Below are positions 5,101 to 23,239 of a stretch of 64,000 nucleotides of DNA, one piece after another. Below the pieces are notes generated by a model. It did not search any database. It was not told the DNA's origin and was given only the letters and a program-made list of their open reading frames with translations. How positions within the stretch are numbered: the first letter of the stretch is position 1; each line of letters starts with the position of its first letter. The position numbers were made by a program, and so were the translations under genes. The stretch comes from Cyanobacteriota bacterium (GTDB lineage Bacteria > Cyanobacteriota > Cyanobacteriia > CACIAM-69d), in NCBI GenBank assembly GCA_022402445.1, contig JAKRSF010000007.1:1-64000 (forward strand), read 5' to 3'.

Positions 5101-7616
5101 GATCGCAGCACTATTGCAGCCAGCTCTTCCATTTCATCAAGTTCACCATTTAAATAGGCAGCTTCTCCAGCCAGCACATACAGATTCAGAGCTAATTCAT
5201 ACCCATGCTGCCAGCAATTTGGTTCGAGTAACCCGAGTCCTTTTTGTAGATAAACTCTGGCGGCGGCGTAAGCCGTGGCGTTTCTTGCCTTCACGCCCGC
5301 TTTCAAATTCAGTTGAGCCAGTGCTTGCCGATCAATGGTCGTAGTAATTAATTCAATTCCTAAATTTAAATGTCCGACAATATCAAATAGTTTCTCCTCA
5401 AGTTCTTCCTCAGATGAATTTTGCTCAAGCAGTCGTCCTATTGTGAAATGGGTTGCAATTTTTTGATCGTCAGGAATCAGAGAGTAAGCGGCCTGTTGAA
5501 TACGATCATGCAAAAAACGATATTTAGGATTTGCTAGATTTTCTGCATTAGCTTGTTCGGGCGTTTCCGATTGAAAAAACTTGTAGATTTGACTGCTGGG
5601 TAAGATTAACCCCTCCTGCAGGGCTTTCCAGAGGGCAGTCGCAGCCTCGGTGGGTGGTTGCTCTGAGACGATCGCCAGAGTCGTCAAATCAAACTGGTTG
5701 CCAATGCAGGCGGCTAATCTGAGTATCTGTTGCGTTTTATCCGGCAATTTCTGCAATTGCGCCGCCATAAATTCCACCACATCATCGGTTAGAAGTAGTG
5801 TATTGATCTGGACAATATCGCATTCCCAGTGGCGACGATCGCTGTTGAAACTGATCTGCCCTTCCCCATGCAAAGCCTTGAGAAATTGGGTAGTAAAAAA
5901 AGGATTGCCTTGAGTTTTACCATCAATTAGCTTCGTCAGGGGTTGAGCCAAATCCACTGAACAATTCAAGGTGTCTGCAATCAGATGATTGGTATCCTCG
6001 AATGCCAGCGGGGATAGGGTAATTGTATTGACGATCGCGCGAGCTTGCTTGATCTCTTCCACCGTCGAGATAAAGGGATGGACCGGCGACACCTCATTGT
6101 CTCGATAGGCACCTAAGATCAATAGATAGCTCTGATCATGCATCAACAGTTTGAGTAGCTGAAGCGAAGCGGGATCAGACCACTGCAAGTCATCCAGAAA
6201 AATCACCAGGGGATGATCTGCGGTGGTAAATACCTCGATAAACTTTTGAAATAGTCGATTAAAGCGATTCTGGGCTGCACTGCCCGACAGTTCTGAAACA
6301 GGGAGCTGTTTGCCAATGATTTGCTCTAGTTCTGGAATGACCTCAACCAAAATTTGTCCATTATCTTTGACAGATGCGAGGATTTTGGCTCGCCACTGCG
6401 CGAGCTGCTCATCGGACTCAGAGAGCAATTGCCCCATCAAATCCCGCAGGGCCTGTACAAAAGCCGATAGGGGAACATTACGATTGAATTGGTCAAATTT
6501 GCCCTTGATGAAATAGCCCCTTTGGCGGACGATGGGCTTATGAACTTCATTCACAACTGCGGTTTTCCCAATCCCTGAAAAACCCGAAACCAGCATGAGT
6601 TCTGAACTGCCGTCCGCCACCCGATCAAATGCCTGCAACAGCGTTTGAACTTCCCTTTCTCGTCCGTAGAGTTTCTCTGGAATTAGAAAGCGATCGCTTA
6701 TGTCCTGCTCCCCCAGATCAAAAGGGGCGATCGCGCCGGTTTCCTGCCACTGGGTCAAGCACTGACTCAGATCATGTTTGAGTCCTAGGGCGCTTTGATA
6801 GCGATCTTCGGCATTTTTCGCCATGAGCTTGCTGACGATCGCGCCCACCATCCCAGGAATCTTAGGGTTGCGCTTATCAGCGGGCAGGGGCATCTTAGCG
6901 ATATGGCAATGGATCAGCTCCAGCGGATCATCCGACTCAAATGGGAGTTTGCCAGTCAACAGTTGATAGAGCGTTACCCCGAGGGCATAAAAATCTGCCC
7001 GATAGTCAATGCCCCGATTCATGCGCCCGGTTTGTTCGGGGGCCAGGTAGGCCAAGGTGCCTTCGAGGACATGGGCACTCTGAATATCCTGGGTTTCCTT
7101 GGGCAATAGAGAGGCAATACTAAAGTCAATAAGCTTGATTTGCTTGGTCTCGGGATGAATGAGAATATTGGCGGGCTTGATGTCCTTATGGACCACTTGA
7201 TGCTGATCTAGGCCATGCAGAATATCCGCTATTTGTAGGGCTATTTTCAGAACATCCGCCAACTCCAATGACTGCTGCTGCCGATATCGCTCTAGCGCGA
7301 CACCTCCCCAATCTTCCATGACTAATGCATAGCTATTCCCCACGGGTTCTAGGCTCAAGGGCTGAACGATTCCAGGCATGGGGAGTGCATTTTCGTCGGT
7401 AATGCACCGCATAATCGTGTGCTGGTTACGGAACTGCACCAACTCGCTAAAGCTGGGATATTTCCGCTGCAACACCTTGATCACCACTGGCCGTTGGGTC
7501 GCTGTTTGTATCGCTCGATACACTGCTGTTCGAGATCCCAGATACAGTTGCTCGATGATGTGATAGCCAGGGAGGCTAGGGAATGGGTGGGAGGAGATAT
7601 TGTCAGTTAGTTTCAT
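2184..7616 (-). CDS. Giant Ser/Thr kinase - AAA ATPase - GAF - histidine kinase signalling protein (1810 aa)
   Basis: A hybrid sensor of the cyanobacterial HstK type. Domain order: eukaryotic-type protein kinase (about 15-285) with the ATP-site Lys in VVIKVLQ, catalytic loop VVHKDIKPANILI and LAPEQTGRMNRGIDYR; a predicted ATPase (about 310-600) with Walker A GFSGIGKT and Walker B VIFLDDLQWSD; a long alpha-helical TPR-like middle (about 650-1340); GAF (about 1360-1510); coiled linker; and a C-terminal histidine kinase with H-box GIAHEINNP (about 1550), N-box NILANAIDAF, and G-boxes DNGKGMPEE and GKGTGLGLAIARQIV. The magnesium-binding DFG appears as DFS (LIDFSIAS), as often seen in this subfamily. 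No membrane segment was found, so it is probably cytosolic. No receiver domain or response regulator gene adjoins it. The gene is AT-richer and much poorer in HIP1 sites than its neighbours, which suggests recent acquisition or different selection. Confidence 0.95.
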   Translation of the reverse strand: MKLTDNISSHPFPSLPGYHIIEQLYLGSRTAVYRAIQTATQRPVVIKVLQRKYPSFSELVQFRNQHTIMRCITDENALPMPGIVQPLSLEPVGNSYALVMEDWGGVALERYRQQQSLELADVLKIALQIADILHGLDQHQVVHKDIKPANILIHPETKQIKLIDFSIASLLPKETQDIQSAHVLEGTLAYLAPEQTGRMNRGIDYRADFYALGVTLYQLLTGKLPFESDDPLELIHCHIAKMPLPADKRNPKIPGMVGAIVSKLMAKNAEDRYQSALGLKHDLSQCLTQWQETGAIAPFDLGEQDISDRFLIPEKLYGREREVQTLLQAFDRVADGSSELMLVSGFSGIGKTAVVNEVHKPIVRQRGYFIKGKFDQFNRNVPLSAFVQALRDLMGQLLSESDEQLAQWRAKILASVKDNGQILVEVIPELEQIIGKQLPVSELSGSAAQNRFNRLFQKFIEVFTTADHPLVIFLDDLQWSDPASLQLLKLLMHDQSYLLILGAYRDNEVSPVHPFISTVEEIKQARAIVNTITLSPLAFEDTNHLIADTLNCSVDLAQPLTKLIDGKTQGNPFFTTQFLKALHGEGQISFNSDRRHWECDIVQINTLLLTDDVVEFMAAQLQKLPDKTQQILRLAACIGNQFDLTTLAIVSEQPPTEAATALWKALQEGLILPSSQIYKFFQSETPEQANAENLANPKYRFLHDRIQQAAYSLIPDDQKIATHFTIGRLLEQNSSEEELEEKLFDIVGHLNLGIELITTTIDRQALAQLNLKAGVKARNATAYAAARVYLQKGLGLLEPNCWQHGYELALNLYVLAGEAAYLNGELDEMEELAAIVLRSAQTINDKIKIYEIQIAAQVLQSNVLEAIAIGRHVLGELGIELPTEINEAKIEETLQTLAAQLEGTQIEDLVDMPAMGDPTAQAALEIMGMLFSPIIQGMPALLPWLSAMMVSLSLKFGNTAASITGYGIHGMVLCAFLEDPVAGYAFGKLAIDLLERLEKFNTQKISAVVMCLFGCFIQHSKEPLKATNPMLKAAYNAGMETGDFLHAGFALSGSSSNRFFSGEELHDLLSDLVDYSVALAQVKQYSAQAYLNLGKQAVENLIELVDQPHRLIGDTYDETLMLPKHQQDNDLIAIAQAHIYKLLLAYHFGSYPDALNSIDQAKPCLMAVSASIFVPVFHFYAALTYLAIFPSQPEVEQNKILLQVQSHKAILRQWSDNAPMNHLHKWYLVEAEEHRVLGKRVEASECYDKAIFLSKKNQFLNEEALANELAARFYLDWDKLRLAGEYMIDAYYAYTRWGAKAKVIDLEDRYPQLLAPILQQDRSPLLTNETIFALNSSTSTGLSTSTGHISDILDFKAILKASQALSSEIELQKLLSALLSIIIENAGGNKCVLMLERDNRILVKGMIVEGSEPIVLQRIPVEESQSVPLSLIYKVRRNQQTVVIIDAIADPALVNDPYVIRCQPKSVLCSPILHQGKLKGILYLENNLATGAFTNDRVELLNSLCAQAAISLENARLYEQAQTYVQQLEQSQLQIVQSEKMASLGNLVAGIAHEINNPIGFLKGSISNAKEYVQDLLEHLALYQQHYPKDVETIQDNAEDIDLEFLIEDLPQLLESMENATDRISNISTSLRTFSRADTDRKISANLHEGIDSTLLILKYRLKASASRPAIEILQNYGEIPEVLCFPGQLNQVFINILANAIDAFDEMTQTQSFEAIKASSPQIAITTATAEEQVEIRIADNGKGMPEEVQQKIFDHLFTTKGVGKGTGLGLAIARQIVEEKHGGSLQVWSELDKGTEFCIRLPILENSD

Positions 7617-12872: not shown

Positions 12873-14186
12873 CTACAGCCGCCGCACCCGGAGTTCGTAG
12901 GTGCTCGCCTCCTCGCCCGCCTCTATGACGATGCGATATTGGCCGTCCTGGGGCAGTTGGACCACCTGCTGACGGGTTTGGCGGGCCAGGTGGCGACCGT
13001 CTTGGCCCAGGAGATCCAGGCGCAGGTTGGGGTCCATGGTGATCAGTTGGATTTGGACGCGACCGCGCCGCCCGTCCATGAGCCATTCCTGACGCTCGCC
13101 CGCCGCGATCGCCGTCTCCACCATGCCCATTTGAGTGAGGGGGTCCAGCGAGAGGGCTCGGGGGCCGATGGAGGCTGGGGCCGCGATCGCCGCCGCCGTC
13201 TCCAGAACTGGATCAAACGTCAGCGCCAATTGATAATCCGTTAGGCTGCCGCTGTTATCCACCCGCAGGTCATAGCGTCCGGGGGCGGGCACTTCGACGG
13301 AAAGCTGCCGCTGCCGGAAGCGGGCACGGGTTTCGCCGGTGGGGGTCACCACGCTGAGGCGCACGCCCAGATCCGGAGACAGCACCAGGGCATTGAGCCG
13401 TCCTGGGAGCGCATTCACTTGCCAAACGTCCTGTTCGCCGGGGGCGAGGCGATCGCGCACCGTCGCAAACCCTTGGTCGGGGTTCAGGGCCAAGGTTGTC
13501 GGGGCCAAGGGCCGTTGCGGGGCTGGGCCAAAGCCGGTGGCCGGGGCCGCGATCGGAGGGGGGGGATCGCCGTCCGCCGAAACCATGGGCTGCGCCATCG
13601 GAGGGGGGGAATCGCCGTCCGCCGGAGCCGTGGGCATGGCCATGGGGGCCGCCGTGGGCATGGTCCTGGGGACCGCCGTGGGTATAGCCATGGGGGCCGC
13701 CGAAGCGCTACAGCCCAGGGACGATGTGGATCCATTGGGCATCACTGCCCCGCACAGGAGCGTTCCCTCCAGCAGCGCCCCGGTGAGGTCCGCCCCCCAG
13801 AGGTAGGCATAGCGCAGGTCCGCCCCCCGCAGGTCCGCCCCCCGCAGGTCCGCCCAGGTGACCACCGCATGGCTCAAGTTAGCCCCCGGCAGACTCGCCC
13901 CCTGCAAATTCAGGCCGCTCAGATCATTGCCCCGCAGGTTGCACCCGGCACAGGCTCGCCGCTGCACCAGGGCTTCCCGGGCCGTCTGGGGGGCGCTGCC
14001 GAGGGCCGGGGCGATCGCGCTGATGACCGCCCCTGACGCGATCGCCCCCACAAGCGCCCCTGGGGCCATGGCACCGAGCCTCCAGAGGGCGCGCCCTGTT
14101 GCCCTCCGCGCCCCGAAATCCATCGCGCTCCGCAGTTTCCCGCGCAAATCCCGCTGATGCCGCCAACCCTGACCGTCCATCCCCAT
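12873..14186 (-). CDS. Pentapeptide-repeat protein with PPC-like C-terminal domains
   Basis: Start taken at ATG 14186, which follows GGGGAGG by 5 nt; the longer frame to 14432 would run through the nrt promoter. Of 437 residues, about 25-65 form a hydrophobic segment resembling a signal or anchor ([27 protein letters not shown]). Residues about 75-150 carry pentapeptide repeats ([36 protein letters not shown]) that fold as a right-handed quadrilateral helix. A low-complexity Ala/Pro/Met linker with repeated MAxPTAxP and SADGDxPPP units follows. Two related beta domains close the protein (about 230-335 and 350-437; [17 protein letters not shown] and [17 protein letters not shown]), resembling bacterial pre-peptidase C-terminal domains. 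It is probably exported. It is divergent from nrtB across 480 nt. Substrate unknown. Confidence 0.75.
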
Positions 14187-14400
14187 AAACCCTCCCCAAT
14201 CCACCTGTGCCCCTAAGTTAACAGCGCCCTTTCCCCCACCACAACTACCCGCGATCGCGGCGATCGCCCGTCCCCCCAAACGCCCCACGGATCCCGCCCC
14301 CCGCGATCGCCGCAACTCGCCCAAACCCAATCGATTTATCCCAGGGATCCATCGACCACGCATGGGCATCATGCAGCTTTCGCATGGACCTTTAGAAAAT

Positions 14401-14442
14401 GTATCTGGGGGTACAAAACCTTTAGGGGGCATTTTTTAGGAT
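14401..14442 (+). promoter_or_regulatory. NtcA-activated (class II) promoter of the nitrate cluster
   Basis: GTA (14401-14403), eight bases, TAC (14412-14414) is a perfect NtcA site. Exactly 22 bases later comes TAGGAT (14437-14442), fitting the TAN3T -10 box. GTAN8TAC-N22/23-TAN3T is the established architecture of promoters switched on by the nitrogen regulator NtcA with 2-oxoglutarate under low ammonium. Transcription should start near 14449, giving a leader of about 218 nt before nrtB. Confidence 0.88.
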
Positions 14443-14513
14443 GAGCCCAACTTTACCGATGCTTTACCATTAGCGAAACATTCGGTAATGCTAGGGCAAA
14501 ATATAGGCATTCA

Positions 14514-14621
14514 ATGGATCACCATTGGGTTGATCTATGGGTTCCAAGCTTTTACCTTTGGGAAGCATTTGGAACAATCTTTAGGAATTCAAGCCCAGGC
14601 GAATTTCTAACAGATTCATAG
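14514..14621 (+). CDS. Possible upstream ORF in the nrtB leader (35 aa)
   Basis: ATG at 14514 opens 35 codons ending in TAG at 14619-14621. The product begins MDHHWVDLWVPSFYLWEAFG and is rich in Trp and aromatic residues. There is no Shine-Dalgarno. It lies wholly inside the predicted nitrate-cluster leader. It may be chance; a leader peptide is a possibility. Confidence 0.2.
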   Translation: MDHHWVDLWVPSFYLWEAFGTIFRNSSPGEFLTDS

Positions 14622-14666
14622 CCCAACTCACCCCCCTTGACCTGATCGCCGTCACCTCGCCAAGCC

Positions 14667-15533
14667 ATGACCACTGCAACCCCCAAATCCCCTTCCAGCG
14701 CCTTGAAATCCAACGGGATACACCGCTCCCTTGGGAAAATACTTGGCAAAGGGGGAGAAAATATTATCTTCCCGGCCCTAGGGTTTTTGGCGGTTCTTTT
14801 CATTTGGAGCATCCTCGCCAAATTAACCGAAAACAACCTCAGTAAGCTGCCCGATCCGGTGCAAACCGTTGAAGATAGTATCCCCTACCTGGAAAATTTC
14901 TTCTCCACGACCCAAGGGGACATGGGCATCTTCTGGCTCACCCTCTTTAGTCTCGGGCGGGTTGCGGCTGGGTTTCTCATCGCCACCGCGATCGCGGTGC
15001 CCCTGGGGTTTTGGGTGGGCACCTCCCGCAAGGCCGCCAAGGCCATCATGCCCCTGGTGCAGCTTGGTAAACCCATCTCTCCCTTGGCCTGGTTGCCGGT
15101 GGGCATCGTCATCTTTTCCACCTTTGAAAGTAAGGATCTACCCGCGATTTTCGTAATCGTGGTGACCTCCCTGTGGTCCACATTAATCAACACGGCCCTG
15201 GGGGTCCACGCCATTCCCAAGGACTATTGGAACGTGGCGCGGGTGCTGAAGATGCCCAAATTTAAAGTGGTCACCGAAATCATTTTCCCTTCGACCTTGC
15301 CCTACATTTTCACCGGCCTTCGCCTGAGCCTGGGGACCGCGTGGCTGGTGATTGTTGCTGCAGAAATGTTGACCGGCGGAGCGGGAATTGGATTTTTTGT
15401 CTGGGATGTTTACAACACGGGTGATACGAGCCTGGTGCTGTTTTCCCTCGTCCTCATTGGCCTGGTGGGCCTGATGCTCGATCAGGTGGTTGTATTCATT
15501 GAGCGGCTCATTGTTGGACGCTCGAAGACCTAG
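14667..15533 (+). CDS. nrtB: Nitrate ABC transporter permease NrtB
   Basis: Inner-membrane permease of the NrtABCD nitrate/nitrite importer. The 288-residue protein has an N-terminal helix (IIFPALGFLAVLFIWSILA) and further membrane segments about 85-115, 130-150, 155-175, 215-235 and 255-275. The cytoplasmic EAA loop that docks the ATPases is visible as DYWNVARVLKMPKFKVVTEI followed by IFPSTLPYIFTGLRLSLGTAW. It is the first gene of the cluster and starts about 218 nt after the predicted NtcA-dependent start site. In most described cyanobacterial clusters nrtA comes first; here nrtB does. A bicarbonate (Cmp) permease would look similar, but narB downstream makes nitrate the substrate of choice. 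Confidence 0.93.
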   Translation: MTTATPKSPSSALKSNGIHRSLGKILGKGGENIIFPALGFLAVLFIWSILAKLTENNLSKLPDPVQTVEDSIPYLENFFSTTQGDMGIFWLTLFSLGRVAAGFLIATAIAVPLGFWVGTSRKAAKAIMPLVQLGKPISPLAWLPVGIVIFSTFESKDLPAIFVIVVTSLWSTLINTALGVHAIPKDYWNVARVLKMPKFKVVTEIIFPSTLPYIFTGLRLSLGTAWLVIVAAEMLTGGAGIGFFVWDVYNTGDTSLVLFSLVLIGLVGLMLDQVVVFIERLIVGRSKT

Positions 15534-15627: not shown

Positions 15628-17025
15628 ATGACCCTAGATCGTCGCAGATTCCTGAAGTATTCCGCCTACGCCGCCGCCGGTTTCACCGTAGCCGCCTGCA
15701 ACTCCGGGGGTGGTCAGAATGTCGCCGACACCACGGCGGAAACCACCGAAGGTGCCACCCCCCTCGGGCGTCCAGCGGTGGACTTTGGCACCCTGGAAAA
15801 GACGGATTTGACCATTGGGATCATTCCCCTCACGGACTGTGCTCCCCTGGTCATTGCTAAGGAAAAGGGCTTTTTCGAGAAATATGGCCTCAATGTCACC
15901 ATCAACAAGGAGGCCAGTTGGGCAACGGTTCGTGATGGCCTAATTCAAGGGCGATTGGATGCGTCCCATGCGGTTTGTGGGATGCCTTTGCTCTCGGAGT
16001 TGGGGCCGGATAAAGCGCCCATGCGATCGCTCATGATGCTAGATCGCAATGGCAACTCCATGACCCTCTCGAAAAAGGCTTGGGAGGCGGGCATTCGCCC
16101 CTGGTACGAGTACGGCAGTTTCGATGAGTTTGGGGCCGCCTACCGGAAGTACATCACCAGCCAAGGGGAGCCGCCGACTTTTGCGGTGGTGTTCCCCTCC
16201 TCCATGCACAATTACAACACCCGCTATTGGCTATCAGCCATGGGGATCAATCCTGAAACGGATATGAAGGTCATTGTGATTCCGCCGCCCCAAATGGTGG
16301 AAAACATGAAGGCGGGAACGATGGATGGCTATTGCGTTGGGGAGCCCTGGAACCAGCGGGCAGTCTTTGATCAGGTGGGCTTCACCGCGACCGCAGATCG
16401 CGATGTCTGGCAGGGGCATCCGGAAAAGGTGCTGGCGACGATGCAGTCCTGGCTCGATGCCAATCCCAATACCGCCAAGGCCCTGGTGGCGGCGGTGATT
16501 GAAGCCTGTGAATATTGCGATGTCATGGACAATCGCCTGGAGGTGGTGGAAATCATTTCCCAGCGTCCCTACGTCAATGCCAAGGTGGAATACGCCAAGG
16601 CATCCATGTTGGGCACCTACAATTACGGTGGTTTTGACGGCCAAGATCGCACCCAGCCGATTCCGGATTACAACCTATTCAACTTCATGGAAACGGATTA
16701 CATGAAGGCCAGTAATAATGCCAACTATCCCTGGGCATCCCATGGGGTTTGGCTGCTCACCCAAATGATTCGCTGGGGGCAGTTGCCCGACATCAAGGAA
16801 TATCCGGCGGATGCGGATGCCATCATTGATCGGGTCTATCCGGTGACGGTCTATGGGGCGGTGGCGGATGCCATGGGCATTTCCTATCCGAAGGGGGAAC
16901 GGATGATGAAGGAGCCTGGATCGTTCTTCATTGATGGCCGGGAATTTAATCCGGAGGATCCGGTGGCCTATCTCAATGGTTTTGATATTCGAGCGGGCGC
17001 GCCTCGGACGTTTTCTTTCACCTAG
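15628..17025 (+). CDS. nrtA: Nitrate-binding lipoprotein NrtA
   Basis: Periplasmic substrate-binding component of the nitrate importer. The N-terminus DRRRFLKYSAYAAAGFTVAAC combines a twin-arginine motif with a lipobox ending at a Cys, so export by Tat and lipid anchoring are likely; a Ser/Thr/Glu linker follows. The binding domain has the family blocks IGIIPLTDCAPLVIAKEKGF, ASWATVRDGL, VVFPSSMHNYNTRYWL, PPPQMVENMKAGTMDGYCV and GEPWNQRAV. The same blocks occur in the C-terminal half of NrtC. 465 aa is normal. The start at 15628 is 94 nt after nrtB. CmpA is the close paralogue, and the narB context decides for nitrate. Confidence 0.93.
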   Translation: MTLDRRRFLKYSAYAAAGFTVAACNSGGGQNVADTTAETTEGATPLGRPAVDFGTLEKTDLTIGIIPLTDCAPLVIAKEKGFFEKYGLNVTINKEASWATVRDGLIQGRLDASHAVCGMPLLSELGPDKAPMRSLMMLDRNGNSMTLSKKAWEAGIRPWYEYGSFDEFGAAYRKYITSQGEPPTFAVVFPSSMHNYNTRYWLSAMGINPETDMKVIVIPPPQMVENMKAGTMDGYCVGEPWNQRAVFDQVGFTATADRDVWQGHPEKVLATMQSWLDANPNTAKALVAAVIEACEYCDVMDNRLEVVEIISQRPYVNAKVEYAKASMLGTYNYGGFDGQDRTQPIPDYNLFNFMETDYMKASNNANYPWASHGVWLLTQMIRWGQLPDIKEYPADADAIIDRVYPVTVYGAVADAMGISYPKGERMMKEPGSFFIDGREFNPEDPVAYLNGFDIRAGAPRTFSFT

Positions 17026-17319
17026 TTAGGGATCCGTTTTTCCGTAATGCCATCAATGGCTTATGGCGATTCTGCGGATGGGAAAAGGGGATTGGGGGGG
17101 ATTATTTCTTCCCGTGGGCGATCGCCCCTCAGCCCCCTATCCGATCGCCGGTGGCGGTGATGGTGCCCAGCTTGACAGCCCATGCCCACCTCAACCGGTT
17201 AGGGTATGGCCCATTACCGCATCGGTCCCGATTGAGTTGGATTTAGATTGATCCGCCGTGGGCATTTGATCCTTAGCCTCCTTGCTCCCCTAGCCTCCCC
17301 TAGCACCCCCCTCAAGGCC
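17026..17319 (+). other. Spacer between nrtA and nrtC
   Basis: About 290 nt without a gene. A short hairpin GCCAT-CA-ATGGC lies just after nrtA and G-rich DNA follows. No NtcA site and no clear terminator is visible, so readthrough from the upstream promoter is plausible. Confidence 0.4.
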
Positions 17320-19362
17320 ATGTCAGCATTTTTAGAAGTTGATCATGTTGATCGCGTTTTTGATCTGCCGGATGGCGGCACCTACATCGCCCTAGAAAAT
17401 ATTTCCCTGAAGATTGAACAGGGGGAATTCGTGACGCTGTTGGGCCATTCGGGCTGCGGAAAATCGACGCTCCTCAACATTGTGGCGGGCCTCGATCAAC
17501 CCAGCAGTGGTGGTGTGGTCCTGGAGGGGCGGCAGGTGAATGAACCGGGGCCGGATCGGATGGTGATTTTCCAGAACTATTCCCTGCTGCCCTGGAAAAC
17601 GGTGCGCGAAAATATTGCCCTGGCGGTGGATACGGTCTGCAAGGAGTTGCCGCCGGGGGAGCGGACCGCGATCGTCGATCGCCACATTGAAATGGTGGGC
17701 CTGATGGCGGCGGCGGATAAGTATCCGGGGCAACTGTCGGGGGGGATGAAGCAGCGGGTGGCGATCGCGCGGGGGCTGGCGATTCGGCCTCGGGTGCTGC
17801 TGCTGGATGAACCCTTTGGGGCGCTCGATGCCCTCACTAGGGGGGGCTTGCAGGAACAGTTGATGCGCATTTGTGAGGAGAGTCAAGTCACCTGCATTAT
17901 GGTCACCCATGATGTGGATGAGGCGCTGCTCCTGAGTGATCGCGTGGTGATGCTGACCACGGGGCCATCGGCGCGCGTCGGCCAGGTGCTCAAGGTGGAT
18001 ATTCCCCGCCCCCGGCACCGCATGGAGGTGGTGAATCACCCGAGCTACTACGCCCTGCGCAATGAAATGGTGTACTTCCTCAACCAGCAAAAGCGCAGTA
18101 AGAAACGCAAGGGCCAAGTGGCGGTTCCCCAGGAAAGCAGCGGTGCGATCGCGGCCCACGGCCTCGAAAAAGTGAATCTCAATTTGGGCTTTATCCCCCT
18201 AACGGACTGCGCGCCGCTGATCATGGCCCAGGAGAAGGGGTTCTTTGCGAAGCACGGCCTCGATCGCGTCACCCTGCACCGTCAACCCAGTTGGAAGGCC
18301 ATTTCCGTGGGCGTCGCGGACGGCAGCCTCGATGGGGCCGCCATGGTGGCGGGGATGCCCCTGGCCATGACCTTGGGATCGAGCGACTTTGCCCCCACCG
18401 CCACGATCGCGCCGATGGTCCTCTCGCGCAATGGCAATGCCATCACCTGGAGCCGCAAACTGTACGACGCGGGCATCACGGATCTGACGGCCTTTAAGGG
18501 ACATATCCAAGCGGATCCAGATAAGGTCCATACGTTCGGCATGGTTCACCCCAGCTCCATGCACAATCTCATCCTGCGCTACTGGCTCGCCTCCGGCGGC
18601 ATTGACCCGGATTGGGATCTGAGCCTCGCGATCGTGCCGCCGCCCCAAATGGTGGCCAACCTCAAGGCGGGCAATATCGATGGCTACTGTGTCGGAGAGC
18701 CCTGGAACTCCCGCGCGGTGCAGGATGGCATCGGCGTGGTCATGGCCACGGATTTGGATCTGTTCCCCGACCATGTGGAAAAGGTGCTGGGGGTGTCGGA
18801 AGCCTGGGCGCAGCAGCATCCCAAGACCTTGGTGGCCTTGATTGCGGCCCTGCTGGAGGCTTGTGAGTATTGTGATGATCGCCGCAACCGTGAGGAGATC
18901 CTGGCGGTGCTCTCGCAGCCAGACTATGTGGGCCTTGCGCCGGAGGTGATGGCCCCTGGGTTCTACGGTTCCTACGATCGCGGCCTCGGCGGCGAACCGG
19001 AGGCGCTCTATCAATTCAATCGCTTTTTTGTGGACAAATCCGCCAGTCCCGATTGGGTTCAATCCCTTTGGATGATGGCGGAAATGGCCCGCTGGGATAT
19101 TATTCCCTTCCCGAAAAATTGGGTCGAGGTGACGGAGCGGATCAATCCTTCGGGGCCATACCTGGAGGCGGCGCGACTGTTGGGCTTACCGACGGCGGCC
19201 CGCGATCGCAAACCCTTCACCCTCTTTGATGGCACGGTGTTTGATCCCGATGTGCCCTTGGATTACCTCAACAGCCACATGATTAAACGCAATGCCCGCG
19301 TTGAAGAGGTGCGAATTGATGAAATCTTTAGCTGCTCGATTAGTTTGCCGAAGGGGGCTTAG
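17320..19362 (+). CDS. nrtC: Nitrate transporter ATPase fused to a substrate-binding domain, NrtC
   Basis: NrtC is the ATPase of the nitrate importer with a C-terminal NrtA-like domain that mediates inhibition of uptake by ammonium. Residues 1-255 are the ABC domain: Walker A GHSGCGKST (42-50), Q-loop IFQNYSLLPW, signature LSGGMKQRVAIARG, Walker B VLLLDEPFGALD, and switch His in MVTHDVDEAL. Residues about 282-680 repeat the NrtA fold (LGFIPLTDCAPLIMAQEKGF, VHPSSMHNLILRYW, PPPQMVANLKAGNIDGYCV). I start at the ATG at 17320 (weak AAGG close by) because the ABC domain begins there; a TTG at 17248 would add 24 poorly conserved residues. 680 aa fits the family. Confidence 0.95.
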   Translation: MSAFLEVDHVDRVFDLPDGGTYIALENISLKIEQGEFVTLLGHSGCGKSTLLNIVAGLDQPSSGGVVLEGRQVNEPGPDRMVIFQNYSLLPWKTVRENIALAVDTVCKELPPGERTAIVDRHIEMVGLMAAADKYPGQLSGGMKQRVAIARGLAIRPRVLLLDEPFGALDALTRGGLQEQLMRICEESQVTCIMVTHDVDEALLLSDRVVMLTTGPSARVGQVLKVDIPRPRHRMEVVNHPSYYALRNEMVYFLNQQKRSKKRKGQVAVPQESSGAIAAHGLEKVNLNLGFIPLTDCAPLIMAQEKGFFAKHGLDRVTLHRQPSWKAISVGVADGSLDGAAMVAGMPLAMTLGSSDFAPTATIAPMVLSRNGNAITWSRKLYDAGITDLTAFKGHIQADPDKVHTFGMVHPSSMHNLILRYWLASGGIDPDWDLSLAIVPPPQMVANLKAGNIDGYCVGEPWNSRAVQDGIGVVMATDLDLFPDHVEKVLGVSEAWAQQHPKTLVALIAALLEACEYCDDRRNREEILAVLSQPDYVGLAPEVMAPGFYGSYDRGLGGEPEALYQFNRFFVDKSASPDWVQSLWMMAEMARWDIIPFPKNWVEVTERINPSGPYLEAARLLGLPTAARDRKPFTLFDGTVFDPDVPLDYLNSHMIKRNARVEEVRIDEIFSCSISLPKGA

Positions 19363-19545: not shown

Positions 19546-20415
19546 ATGCTCCTCAATCCTTCCATGTCTGGCCCCACCAATTCCACGCCCACCGCCGACT
19601 TTTCCATGGCCAATCCCGGTGATGGCACCAAGTTTTTAAGCATTAACCAGGTCTCCAAAAGCTACCCCACCCCGACCGGCGTTTATCCCGTACTGGAGAA
19701 TGTCAATCTTCAGGTGGATCAGGGGGAATTTATCTGCGTAATCGGCCATTCCGGCTGCGGTAAATCGACCCTTTTGAACATGGTGGCGGGCTTTTTGGAG
19801 CCTACGGCCGGTCAAATCAGCCTTGAAAACCAGACCATTCAAGAGCCAGGACCGGATCGCATGGTGGTGTTTCAAAACTATGCGCTCTTGCCCTGGAAGA
19901 GTGTTTACGAAAATGTGCTGTTGGCGGTGGAAACCGTCTATGGGGAAAAGTCCAAGGCTGAACATCGGGAAATCGTAGACCAACATTTAGAAATGGTGGG
20001 GCTGACGGAAGCGGCCCATAAGCGCCCCGATGAAATTTCGGGGGGGATGAAACAGCGGGTTTCGATCGCGCGGGCCTTAGCCATTTGTCCGAAGGTTTTG
20101 ATTTTGGATGAACCCTTTGGGGCCTTGGATCCGATTACGCGAGAGGAATTGCAGGACGAACTGCTCACCATTTGGCGAGAAAATAAGGTGACGGCCCTGA
20201 TGATTACCCACGATATTGATGAGGCCCTTTACCTGGCCGATCGCCTGGTGATGATGACCAATGGCCCGTCTGCCACCATTGGCGAAGTGGTGGATATTCC
20301 CTTCCAACGGCCCCGCGATCGCGCCCTAATGCTCGAGGATCCGCGCTATTACGAATTGCGTAACCAGGCCCTCGACTTCCTGTACAATCGCTACGCCCAC
20401 GATGATACGGAATAG
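19546..20415 (+). CDS. nrtD: Nitrate transporter ATPase NrtD
   Basis: Second, stand-alone ATPase of the NrtABCD importer, pairing with NrtC under the permease. Walker A GHSGCGKST (67-75), Q-loop VFQNYALLPW, signature ISGGMKQRVSIARA, Walker B VLILDEPFGALD and MITHDIDEALYLADR are all intact. It is closely similar to the NrtC ATPase but ends without a binding domain at 289 aa. The first ~28 residues are Ser/Thr/Asn/Pro-rich and unconserved, so a start at Met7 or Met21 is possible. It lies 183 nt after nrtC and 115 nt before narB. Confidence 0.95.
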   Translation: MLLNPSMSGPTNSTPTADFSMANPGDGTKFLSINQVSKSYPTPTGVYPVLENVNLQVDQGEFICVIGHSGCGKSTLLNMVAGFLEPTAGQISLENQTIQEPGPDRMVVFQNYALLPWKSVYENVLLAVETVYGEKSKAEHREIVDQHLEMVGLTEAAHKRPDEISGGMKQRVSIARALAICPKVLILDEPFGALDPITREELQDELLTIWRENKVTALMITHDIDEALYLADRLVMMTNGPSATIGEVVDIPFQRPRDRALMLEDPRYYELRNQALDFLYNRYAHDDTE

Positions 20416-20530: not shown

Positions 20531-22648
20531 ATGGATTCGGTGAAAACCATCTGCCCCTATTGTGGTGTTGGGTGTGGCCTGGAAATATTTGGGGCGGCGG
20601 ATAAACGGCGGGTGCGGGGCGATCGCGACCATCCCTCTAGCCAGGGCCTGGTGTGTGTGAAGGGGGCAACGATTCTAGAGTCCCTAGAGCGCGATCGCCT
20701 GACCTATCCCATGATGCGATCGTCCTTGACGGAACCCTTCCAGCGCATCAGTTGGGATCAGGCCCTCGACGCGATCGCGGCTCGCATCCGGGCGCTATTG
20801 GTAACCCAGGGGCCGGACAGCATTTGCATGTATGGCTCTGGGCAGTTTTTGACGGAGGATTATTATGTGGCCCAAAAGCTCATTAAGGGCTGCTTAGGTA
20901 CGAATAATTTTGATGCCAATTCCCGCCTTTGCATGTCGTCGGCGGTGTCGGGTTACATTCGCAGTTTCGGGGCCGATGGACCGCCCGCCTGCTATGACGA
21001 TCTCGAACAAACAGATTATTTATTTGCCATTGGCACCAATACCGCCGATTGCCATCCCATCGCCTTCAATCGCTTCCGCAAATACCACAAGGCCCAGGGC
21101 GATCGCGTTAAATTAGTCGTCGCTGATCCCCGCCGTACGGCCACCGCAGAAGTGGCGGATTTGCACCTAGCCATTCGTCCTGGCAGCGACATTGATCTCG
21201 TCCACGGCATCGCCCATTTATTGTGGCAGTGGGGCGCGATCGCGAAGGATTTTATTATTGACCATACGGAAGGATTTGAAGCCTATCTCACCCTTTTGAA
21301 GGACTACACCCCCGATCGCGTGGCCGATCGCTGTGGCATTGACCGGGCCGATCTAGAAACCGCCGCCCGCTGGTGGGCCGAATCGGAGCGTGTTCTGTCC
21401 ATTTGGTCCATGGGCATCAACCAATCCGCCGAAGGCACCGCAAAAGTTCGCAGTATCATCGATTTACACCTGCTGACGGGGCAAATTGGCCGCGCCGGAG
21501 CCGGTCCCTTTTCCCTGACGGGGCAGCCCAATGCCATGGGGGGCCGGGAGGCGGGCGGCCTCGCCAAACTCCTGCCCGGTTATCGCCTCATCAGCAATGC
21601 CGCCGATCGCGCGGCGGTGGAACAGTTTTGGCAGGTGCCCACCGGTCGCATTTCGCCACGGGAGGGCCGCGACGCCTGGGGCATCATCGAAGGGCTGGAG
21701 AGGGGAGAGGTGGGCCTGCTGTGGATTGCGGCCACCAATCCGGCGGTGAGTTTTCCGGATCTCAACCGCACCAAGGCGGCCTTACAAAAGTCCCCGTTTA
21801 CGATCTACCAAGACGCCTACTACCCCACGGAAACGGCGGCCTATGCCCATCTGCTGCTGCCTGCCGCCCAGTGGAGTGAGAAAAGCGGCACCATGACCAA
21901 TTCCGAGCGGGTGGTGACCCTATCCCAGGCGTTTCGGGAGCCACCGGGGGAGGCGCGGGCGGACTGGGAAATTTTTGCGGCGGTGGGGCGGCGTTTGGGC
22001 TTTGGGGCGCAGTTTCAGTTTGGGGATGCGGCGGCGGTGCATCGGGAATTTGTGCAACTGACGGCGGGTCGCCCCTGTGATATGTCCGGAATGGATCACG
22101 ATCTGCTGGCGAAGGGGGCGCTGCAATGGCCTTGTCCCCGCGATCGCCCGGACCACAAAAATCTCACAAAGCGACTCTATGAAAAGGGCCAATTCCATAC
22201 GCCGAGCGGGCGGGCGCGCTTTTCCGCCTGCGATACGGTGGGGCTAGCGGAGCCGCCGGACGATGACTATCCGCTGGTGTTGACCATCGGGCGGCTGTAC
22301 GGCCACTGGCACACCCAAACCCGCACGGGGCGCATTGATAAGATCCGCAAAATGTACCCGGAGCCGTTTCTCGAAATCCATCCGACCGATGCGCTGCCCC
22401 TGGGCCTGGTGGATGGGGAGCCGGTGGTGGTGCGATCGCGCCGGGGGGTGGCCCAATTTCCCGCGCGGGTGACCACCGCGATCGCGCCGGGGACGGTGTT
22501 TGCGCCGATGCACTGGGGATTTTTGTGGGCGGACGGGGCCGAGGCCAATGCCCTGACCCATCCGGCGGTGTGCCCCGATTCGTTGCAGCCGGAGTTGAAG
22601 GCGTGTGCGGTGCGGGTGGAGCGACCCGAGAAAATGGGTGATAAGTGA
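20531..22648 (+). CDS. narB: Ferredoxin-nitrate reductase NarB
   Basis: NarB reduces nitrate to nitrite with electrons from reduced ferredoxin, using a 4Fe-4S cluster and a bis-MGD molybdenum cofactor; it is cytoplasmic. The cluster ligands are C8, C11, C15 and C42 (CPYCGVGC ... GLVCVKG). The molybdenum ligand is the Cys of [10 protein letters not shown] (C134). The cofactor-binding segments include [32 protein letters not shown] and the C-terminal molybdopterin-dinucleotide domain with [18 protein letters not shown]. No signal peptide; 705 aa is the expected length. It is the terminal enzyme of the nrt cluster, and narM follows. Confidence 0.96.
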
Positions 22649-22732: not shown

Positions 22733-23239
22733 ATGACCTGGCCTAGGGCCGCTGCTGTGGGAATTGGAGGGGCGATCGCGGTGATTTTTCAATTTGAGCA
22801 AGAATTTATTGAATCGCTTCGGTGCATCCCCATGGCCGTGCGGTTTCGGTTGGATCGGTGCGGCGTCAAGCTCAAGCTGGTCCACTGGAATGCCCTGACT
22901 TTGCCGGAGCGGCGATCGCTTCTGGAATGGCCCTGCGGTACGGCGGCGGAGGTGGCGGCCTATGGTGATCGCCTCAAGGATTTAGTGGAAGCGCGCACGG
23001 GCGATCGCCCCAAGGATTTGCCCATTGACGAACCGTTCCCCTGGCAGATCGAGGCCGTACCGCCCGCCATCCGCGATCGCGCCGCCGCCCTCGCCGTGAC
23101 CCTGACCGATGACCAGTGGCGATCGCTCGACGACCTCCAGCGGTTTGCCCTAATTAAACTCAGCCGCCCCAGCCACGAAAACGCCAACTTCGGCCCCGCC
23201 CTCCGGGAATTTGGCCTGACGGCTGAACCGATCGCCTAG
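22733..23239 (+). CDS. narM: Nitrate reductase-associated protein NarM
   Basis: The family is required for active NarB in cyanobacteria, probably acting in maturation or electron delivery. The core begins FQFEQEFIESLRCIPMAVRF followed by RLDRCGVKLKL, then WNALTLPERRSLLEWPCGTAAEVAAY, and ends FALIKLSRPSHENANFGPALREFGL; these are the characteristic blocks. The start at 22733 adds a hydrophobic 17-residue lead that is not typical; a GTG at 22781 (before IFQFEQEF) is a plausible true start and would give 152 aa. It directly follows narB, separated by the palindrome at 22689-22708. Confidence 0.88.
   Translation: MTWPRAAAVGIGGAIAVIFQFEQEFIESLRCIPMAVRFRLDRCGVKLKLVHWNALTLPERRSLLEWPCGTAAEVAAYGDRLKDLVEARTGDRPKDLPIDEPFPWQIEAVPPAIRDRAAALAVTLTDDQWRSLDDLQRFALIKLSRPSHENANFGPALREFGLTAEPIA

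Follow-up and report, generated by a model that had tools for sequence, protein, structure and literature searches.

The segment 14360–14442 of the window, that is, of the whole 64,000-nucleotide stretch of DNA that was analysed, is very probably the promoter of an nrtBACD-narB-narM nitrate assimilation cluster, activated by NtcA and most likely boosted by NtcB. Scarce ammonium would raise the level of 2-oxoglutarate, and 2-oxoglutarate-bound NtcA would then occupy the box GTATCTGGGGGTAC, where, in the class II position, it would replace a −35 element and contact or recruit RNA polymerase to TAGGAT, with the RNA starting near 14449. NtcB, a LysR-type regulator, would most likely sit on the GCAT at 14360, the ATGC at 14371, and the GCAT at 14382, boosting transcription together with NtcA and adding activation linked to nitrate or nitrite. 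We infer the binding of NtcA and NtcB, the start point, and the co-activation at nrtB from the sequence, and likewise infer that the whole cluster forms one transcript. The candidate NtcB site is probably an addition to the earlier reading of this promoter, which is ordinary in kind, well supported, and slightly richer than first described. The coordinates of all features are collected in Table 1.

Table 1. Features of the nrtB promoter region and its gene cluster, and perfect NtcA-type sites of the genome.
Feature	Position	Strand	Remarks
Pentapeptide-repeat protein gene	12873–14183	−	start uncertain: 14183 or 14122
GCAT half-site	14360–14363	+	at −41; surviving half of distal NtcB-like box
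NtcB-like proximal box, ATGC-N7-GCAT	14371–14385	+	half-sites TGC −29 and GCA −19, counted from the G of GTA
NtcA box, GTATCTGGGGGTAC	14401–14414	+	perfect GTAN8TAC; alignable with G001/G003 nrtB promoters
−10 element, TAGGAT (TAN3T)	14437–14442	+	22 nt (14415–14436) after the NtcA box
Predicted transcription start	14449	+	box centre 14407.5 + 41.5; class II rule as given in the accessible text of PMC3898017
nrtB leader	14449–14666	+	218 nt; predicted fold stabler than shuffles
nrtB, nitrate ABC transporter permease	14667–15533	+	TIGR01183, 218.7 bits (cut-off 209.05)
nrtA-like, substrate-binding protein	15628–17025	+	NMT1_2
nrtC, ATPase with C-terminal NrtA-like domain	17320–19362	+	ORF listed from TTG 17248; ATG 17320
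nrtD, ATPase	19546–20415	+	TIGR01184
narB, nitrate reductase (molybdopterin oxidoreductase)	20531–22648	+	homology and context
narM, nitrate reductase maturation protein	22733–23239	+	TIGR02664
Perfect site L119	G000:C4:23977-24018		before uroporphyrinogen-III C-methyltransferase gene, siroheme branch
Perfect site L120			before OmpR-type response regulator gene
Perfect site L121			before nirA
Perfect site L122	G000:C7:520363-520404		before DUF3155 protein gene
Perfect site L123			before STAS-domain protein gene
Perfect site L124			before glnA
Perfect site L125			before nrtB of the window

The initial annotation had proposed a GTA-N8-TAC box followed by 22 nt and TAN3T at 14401–14442, and a base-by-base reading (GTA at 14401–14403, the eight spacer bases at 14404–14411, and TAC at 14412–14414) finds this pattern exact to the base. 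The 225 nt that it gave as the distance to nrtB agree with the interval between the last base of TAGGAT and the ATG at 14667. When the 483-nt stretch 14184–14666 was subjected to dinucleotide shuffling, a perfect N22 match arose on the forward strand in 3 of 20,000 shuffles and a match with a spacing of 21–23 nt in 15 of 20,000; the chance occurrence of the N22 pattern in this intergenic region is low. Both strands of the 64-kb window together hold two GTAN8TAC/TAN3T matches with a spacing of 20–24 nt, the second being at 7508 (spacing 21, TACAGT). The region shares every sequence feature of class II NtcA promoters (GTAN8TAC, about 22 nt, TAN3T, centre at about −41.5), as well as the type of gene they control, and the genome carries an NtcA gene. 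The earlier assignment as a class II NtcA promoter for the nitrate cluster thus appears sound, given the perfect site, the NtcA gene, the grammar shared with nirA and glnA, and the conservation before orthologous nrtB genes.

Downstream, the forward strand carries nrtB, nrtA, nrtC, nrtD, narB, and narM in this order. The best solved relatives of the nrtA-like product are nitrate transport ATP-binding protein chains, with NrtA at 237.5 bits and a bicarbonate transporter at 205.1 bits. A bicarbonate transporter is not the favored identity of the system, because nitrate transporter chains score best among the solved relatives (278.7 bits, with CmpC close at 268.1 bits) and the genes further along the cluster include narB and narM. 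For narB, none of the NCBIfam matches listed passes its cut-off. NrtB precedes NrtA also in genomes G001 and G032 (both by eye) and in locus L039 (RDYZ01000102.1, an Oscillatoriales MAG), and in L039 and G032 nirA lies directly before nrtB. The promoter described here differs from class II nirA promoters in that its first gene is nrtB, while nirA of the same genome lies on another contig (C6) behind a perfect NtcA promoter of its own. According to the accessible text of PMC9430850, nirA of freshwater cyanobacteria is often in an operon with transporter and reductase genes, whereas that of marine ones is not, so the separation of nirA is in itself already known. An NtcA site considered before nrtC (GTATGGCCCATTAC, 17204–17217) has its TAN3T at 26 nt (by eye) and is probably a chance match; the 20-kb stretch of G001 (L168) contains no exact GTAN8TAC before nrtC in the orientation of nrtB.

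The transporter and reductase genes of the cluster compare differently with those of relatives. NarB is 72% identical to NarB of the family members G002, G004, and G005, whereas the NrtB-like proteins adjoining narB in these genomes have 41% identity to NrtB of the window, and the best matches to it anywhere in them reach 46–48%. The closest relatives of the window NrtB are instead found in G001 (77%), L039 (69%), and G032 (68%). The low NrtB identity despite 72% for NarB indicates that the transporter belongs to another branch, and, as judged from these comparisons, it may have been exchanged. In G001 and G003, NarB (L035–L038) is matched in two pieces within one frame of 819–825 residues, which suggests an insertion near residue 540.

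Genes for both regulators are present in the genome. The NtcA gene (G000:C11:15793-16371) scores 382 bits where the cut-off is 245, and its product matches solved NtcA with 415.6 bits. Four LysR-substrate-domain matches occur in the genome. The one that lies at a distance of 4 kb from ntcA, the ntcB candidate (L160:1246-2190), reaches 403 bits to solved NtcB (8h3v), compared with 75 bits for the best chain under any other name; none of the 25 NCBIfam matches listed for it names NtcB or passes its cut-off. In G010, a homologue with 61% identity is encoded within the 20 kb surrounding nirA. Entry 8h3v holds chains named NtcA and NtcB, and presumably belongs to a paper on DNA looping. NtcB is described in the accessible part of PMC7699953 as a co-activator of the nir operon, and a Synechocystis ntcB mutant, in work cited in the text available of PMC5318462, could not respond to nitrite, and its growth on nitrate was slower by a factor of about three.

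The window promoter can be aligned by MAFFT with those before nrtB in G001 and G003, which belong to another genus of the same family. Their boxes read GTT/GTC-ATCTAAGT-TAC, followed by 22 nt and TAGAAT, the first half-box being GTT or GTC, not GTA. Locus L039 has two perfect N22 sites upstream of nrtB, one at 199 nt from it and the other, which precedes nirA, at 1,898 nt. In G032 (L003; L040 is apparently the same contig), no GTAN8TAC occurs between nirA and nrtB, and the nearest one in L040, located 5′ of nirA, has no TAN3T within the next 40 nt. Second NtcA sites considered about 55 nt before nrtB in G001 and G003 (L002 and L004) are read as RNA structure, since each leader is predicted to form a hairpin in which the GTA half base-pairs with the TAC half, and they caution against taking every GTAN8TAC as an NtcA site. 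For comparison with nirA, 30 loci were taken from the 59 genomes with a match, and 29 of them were parsed after exclusion of L157. An exact GTAN8TAC is present in 28 of the 29 upstream regions, and GTN10AC with TAN3T at 21–23 nt in 26 of 29 within the stretch read. The nirA start codons of this set are approximate (that of the window genome, G000, is more likely the GTG 153 nt after the box start), but positions are counted from the NtcA box and are therefore independent of them.

Perfect N22 matches number seven among the 4,077,419 bases of the genome, compared with five for the reversed pattern, so by number alone the pattern does not exceed chance expectation, and the weight is carried by the genes that the sites precede and by conservation. 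The gene downstream of each of the seven sites was read; the translations served to identify nirA and glnA, and nirA was also identified by a homology match. Siroheme, to whose branch one of the other genes belongs, is the cofactor of nitrite reductase. The site before the DUF3155 gene runs into the likely start of that gene, and could reflect either chance or regulation. Both nirA and glnA are among the genes with canonical NtcA promoters in the accessible text of PMC3898017.

Upstream of the NtcA box lies an array of half-sites that resembles the corresponding region of nirA promoters. Its unit, TGC-N7-GCA, is a T-N11-A palindrome, the signature of LysR-type regulators; in Synechococcus PCC 7942, NtcB has the motif TGCA-N5-TGCA. 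In 17 of the 29 parsed nirA loci a TGC-N7-GCA starts 51 or 52 nt upstream of the NtcA box, and three of these 17 have an extra copy nearer the box, at 29 or 30 nt. One more locus, G016, carries just the copy at 29 nt. Neither copy is found in 11 of the 29 loci, including G058, whose stretch begins only a little before the box. G058 and G032 were omitted from the nirA line-up, because fewer than 110 nt of the stretch precede their sites, and G020 gave two sites. Among the resulting 28 promoter sites from 27 genomes, GCA is present at −41 in 21, and TGC is present at −29 in 20 and at −51 in 17. A profile was built from 19 nirA promoters, each from a different genus and all from outside the family of the window genome, and their consensus reads T.ATGCAgTtTtTGCATtg.ttt.ATGCAaAAAtTTCATa at −54 to −15. 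The nirA promoters thus have two boxes 22 bp apart, a spacing that would be expected of a LysR tetramer.

In the window, the proximal box is complete, and the distal box retains one half, its partner at −51 reading CAT, not TGC. The half-sites GCA at −41, TGC at −29, and GCA at −19 thus make up three of the four positions of the array, a combination reached in none of 20,000 shuffles and at 2 of 127,880 window positions, both being this same array read on either strand. Position −19 was added to the array after the window had been seen; without it (TGC −51, GCA −41, TGC −29), the window has two of three, which is reached at 96 of 127,880 positions. With the full nirA profile, the window promoter scores 7.1 and ranks 9th of 127,880 positions. 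The score of 12.0 for the proximal box is reached at three of the 127,880 positions, itself included, and the distal box scores −6.0 in register.

Allowing shifts of register separates the seven perfect sites further. Over 37 shifts, the best scores are 13.1 for nirA (at a 1-nt shift), 11.2 for the siroheme gene (at the same shift), and 7.1 for nrtB (without a shift), and the sites before glnA and the genes for the response regulator, the DUF3155 protein, and the STAS-domain protein score between −4.9 and −12.8. In register, the five perfect sites not preceding nirA or nrtB score as background, as does the genome's own nirA. Among 5,000 random places in the window, the best of 37 shifts is at least 7.1 at 18 and reaches 13.1 at none. 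Since it scores 11.2 at the same shift as nirA, the siroheme-pathway gene does not serve as a negative control, and is itself probably a further NtcB target. In L039, the array before nirA fits best 11 nt further out (22.0), and the fit before nrtB is weak (1.7 at a 1-nt shift, a value that the best of 37 shifts reaches at 61 of 5,000 random places). For the nrtB promoters in G001 and G003, the fit lies 3 nt in the opposite direction (+3), with scores of 9.9 and 5.5, and the proximal box is strong. Because a LysR-type palindrome and a half-site stand in a nirA-like register (the proximal box complete, the distal one half) and the genome encodes NtcB, the nrtB promoter is most likely a dual NtcA and NtcB promoter in which the complete NtcB box lies closer to the NtcA box than usual, by about two helical turns.

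Whether the array has a part in this is the first point on which other readings diverge. NtcA might drive the cluster alone, the ATGC/GCAT array being a chance resemblance or the site of another factor. The missing −51 half-site, which leaves only the proximal box complete, would be accounted for in this way, and glnA, with a perfect NtcA site and no array, indicates that NtcA can act without one. Such a reading is nevertheless unlikely: it would leave to coincidence the register shared with the nirA promoters, the high rank of the profile score in the window, and its scarcity at random places even when shifts are allowed, as well as the strong proximal box at +3 before nrtB of G001 and G003, and the window genome encodes NtcB. 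A chance match of the entire GTAN8TAC-N22-TAN3T pattern, with the cluster using another promoter, would be in keeping with a genome count close to that of the reversed pattern, and the hairpins of G001 and G003, which are probably no NtcA sites, illustrate that GTAN8TAC near nrtB can arise otherwise. We regard it as highly improbable in view of the 3 of 20,000 shuffles and of the conserved placement before orthologous nrtB genes; moreover, the single sigma-70-like match in 14000–14800, where 0.5 are expected, lies at 14743–14770, inside nrtB.

The NtcA- and most likely NtcB-dependent promoter favored here could in principle serve both directions, and the initial annotation had suggested that the divergent pentapeptide-repeat gene might share its regulation. 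The suggestion finds some encouragement in the palindromic nature of the NtcA box and in a pentapeptide-type gene lying divergently upstream in G001 too (by eye), but no TAN3T is present on the minus strand up to 46 nt away from the box, and the likely start of the gene is more than 200 nt away, so that control by a bidirectional NtcA site seems very unlikely. The 519-residue reading frame listed for this gene, with its start at 14432, would overlap the promoter, and the in-frame ATG codons at 14183 and 14122 are likelier starts, as judged from the sequence and, by eye, from the G001 homologue. The best NCBIfam match of the gene is the Alr5209 family, below the cut-off.

The nir operon promoter of Anabaena, in work attributed to Frias et al. 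in 2000 and to Han et al., is said to depend on both NtcA and NtcB. It likewise combines an NtcA box with an upstream LysR-type box, both regulators, and nitrate assimilation genes downstream. Predictions of the NtcB regulon were reportedly made by Lopatovskaya et al. in 2011. The window promoter differs from the lined-up nirA promoters in that its palindrome is at −29/−19, not −51/−41, and thus 22 bp, or about two turns, nearer, and in that its distal box keeps one half only. No description of such a shifted NtcB register was found among listings and some passages of the open-licence literature. In this cyanobacterium, the results assign an nrtB-first cluster that lies apart from nirA to the NtcA regulon, and probably to the NtcB regulon too, along with nirA and the siroheme-pathway gene, not glnA. 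More tentatively, and with some doubt on our part, the nrtB promoter may work with NtcA and NtcB two turns closer together, whole-turn shifts being tolerated, NtcB acting on the siroheme-pathway gene as well, and the leader possibly adding post-transcriptional control. If so, the nirA array of L039, one turn further out, would fit a co-activation that tolerates whole-turn shifts. The natural spacing variants (the usual register, 11 bp further out, and a proximal box only) provide test cases for the cooperation of two activators.

The leader between the predicted start and nrtB contains a 56-codon frame (14440–14607), which was rejected as a conserved small protein gene: it has no Pfam match, and no relative better than E = 0.077 was found in the other five genomes of the family. 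By eye, the small reading frames in the leaders of the window, G001, G003, and L039 look unrelated, and no Rfam match up to E = 1 was obtained in 14000–15000. The predicted fold of the window leader has an energy of −63.2 kcal/mol, compared with −48.8 kcal/mol for shuffles (z = −3.7, none of 200 as good). Extended by 24 bases (14449–14690), it has z = −2.4 (1 of 200), and the leaders of G001, G003, and L039 have z values of −2.4 (2 of 200), −2.2 (6 of 200), and −0.5 (58 of 200), respectively.
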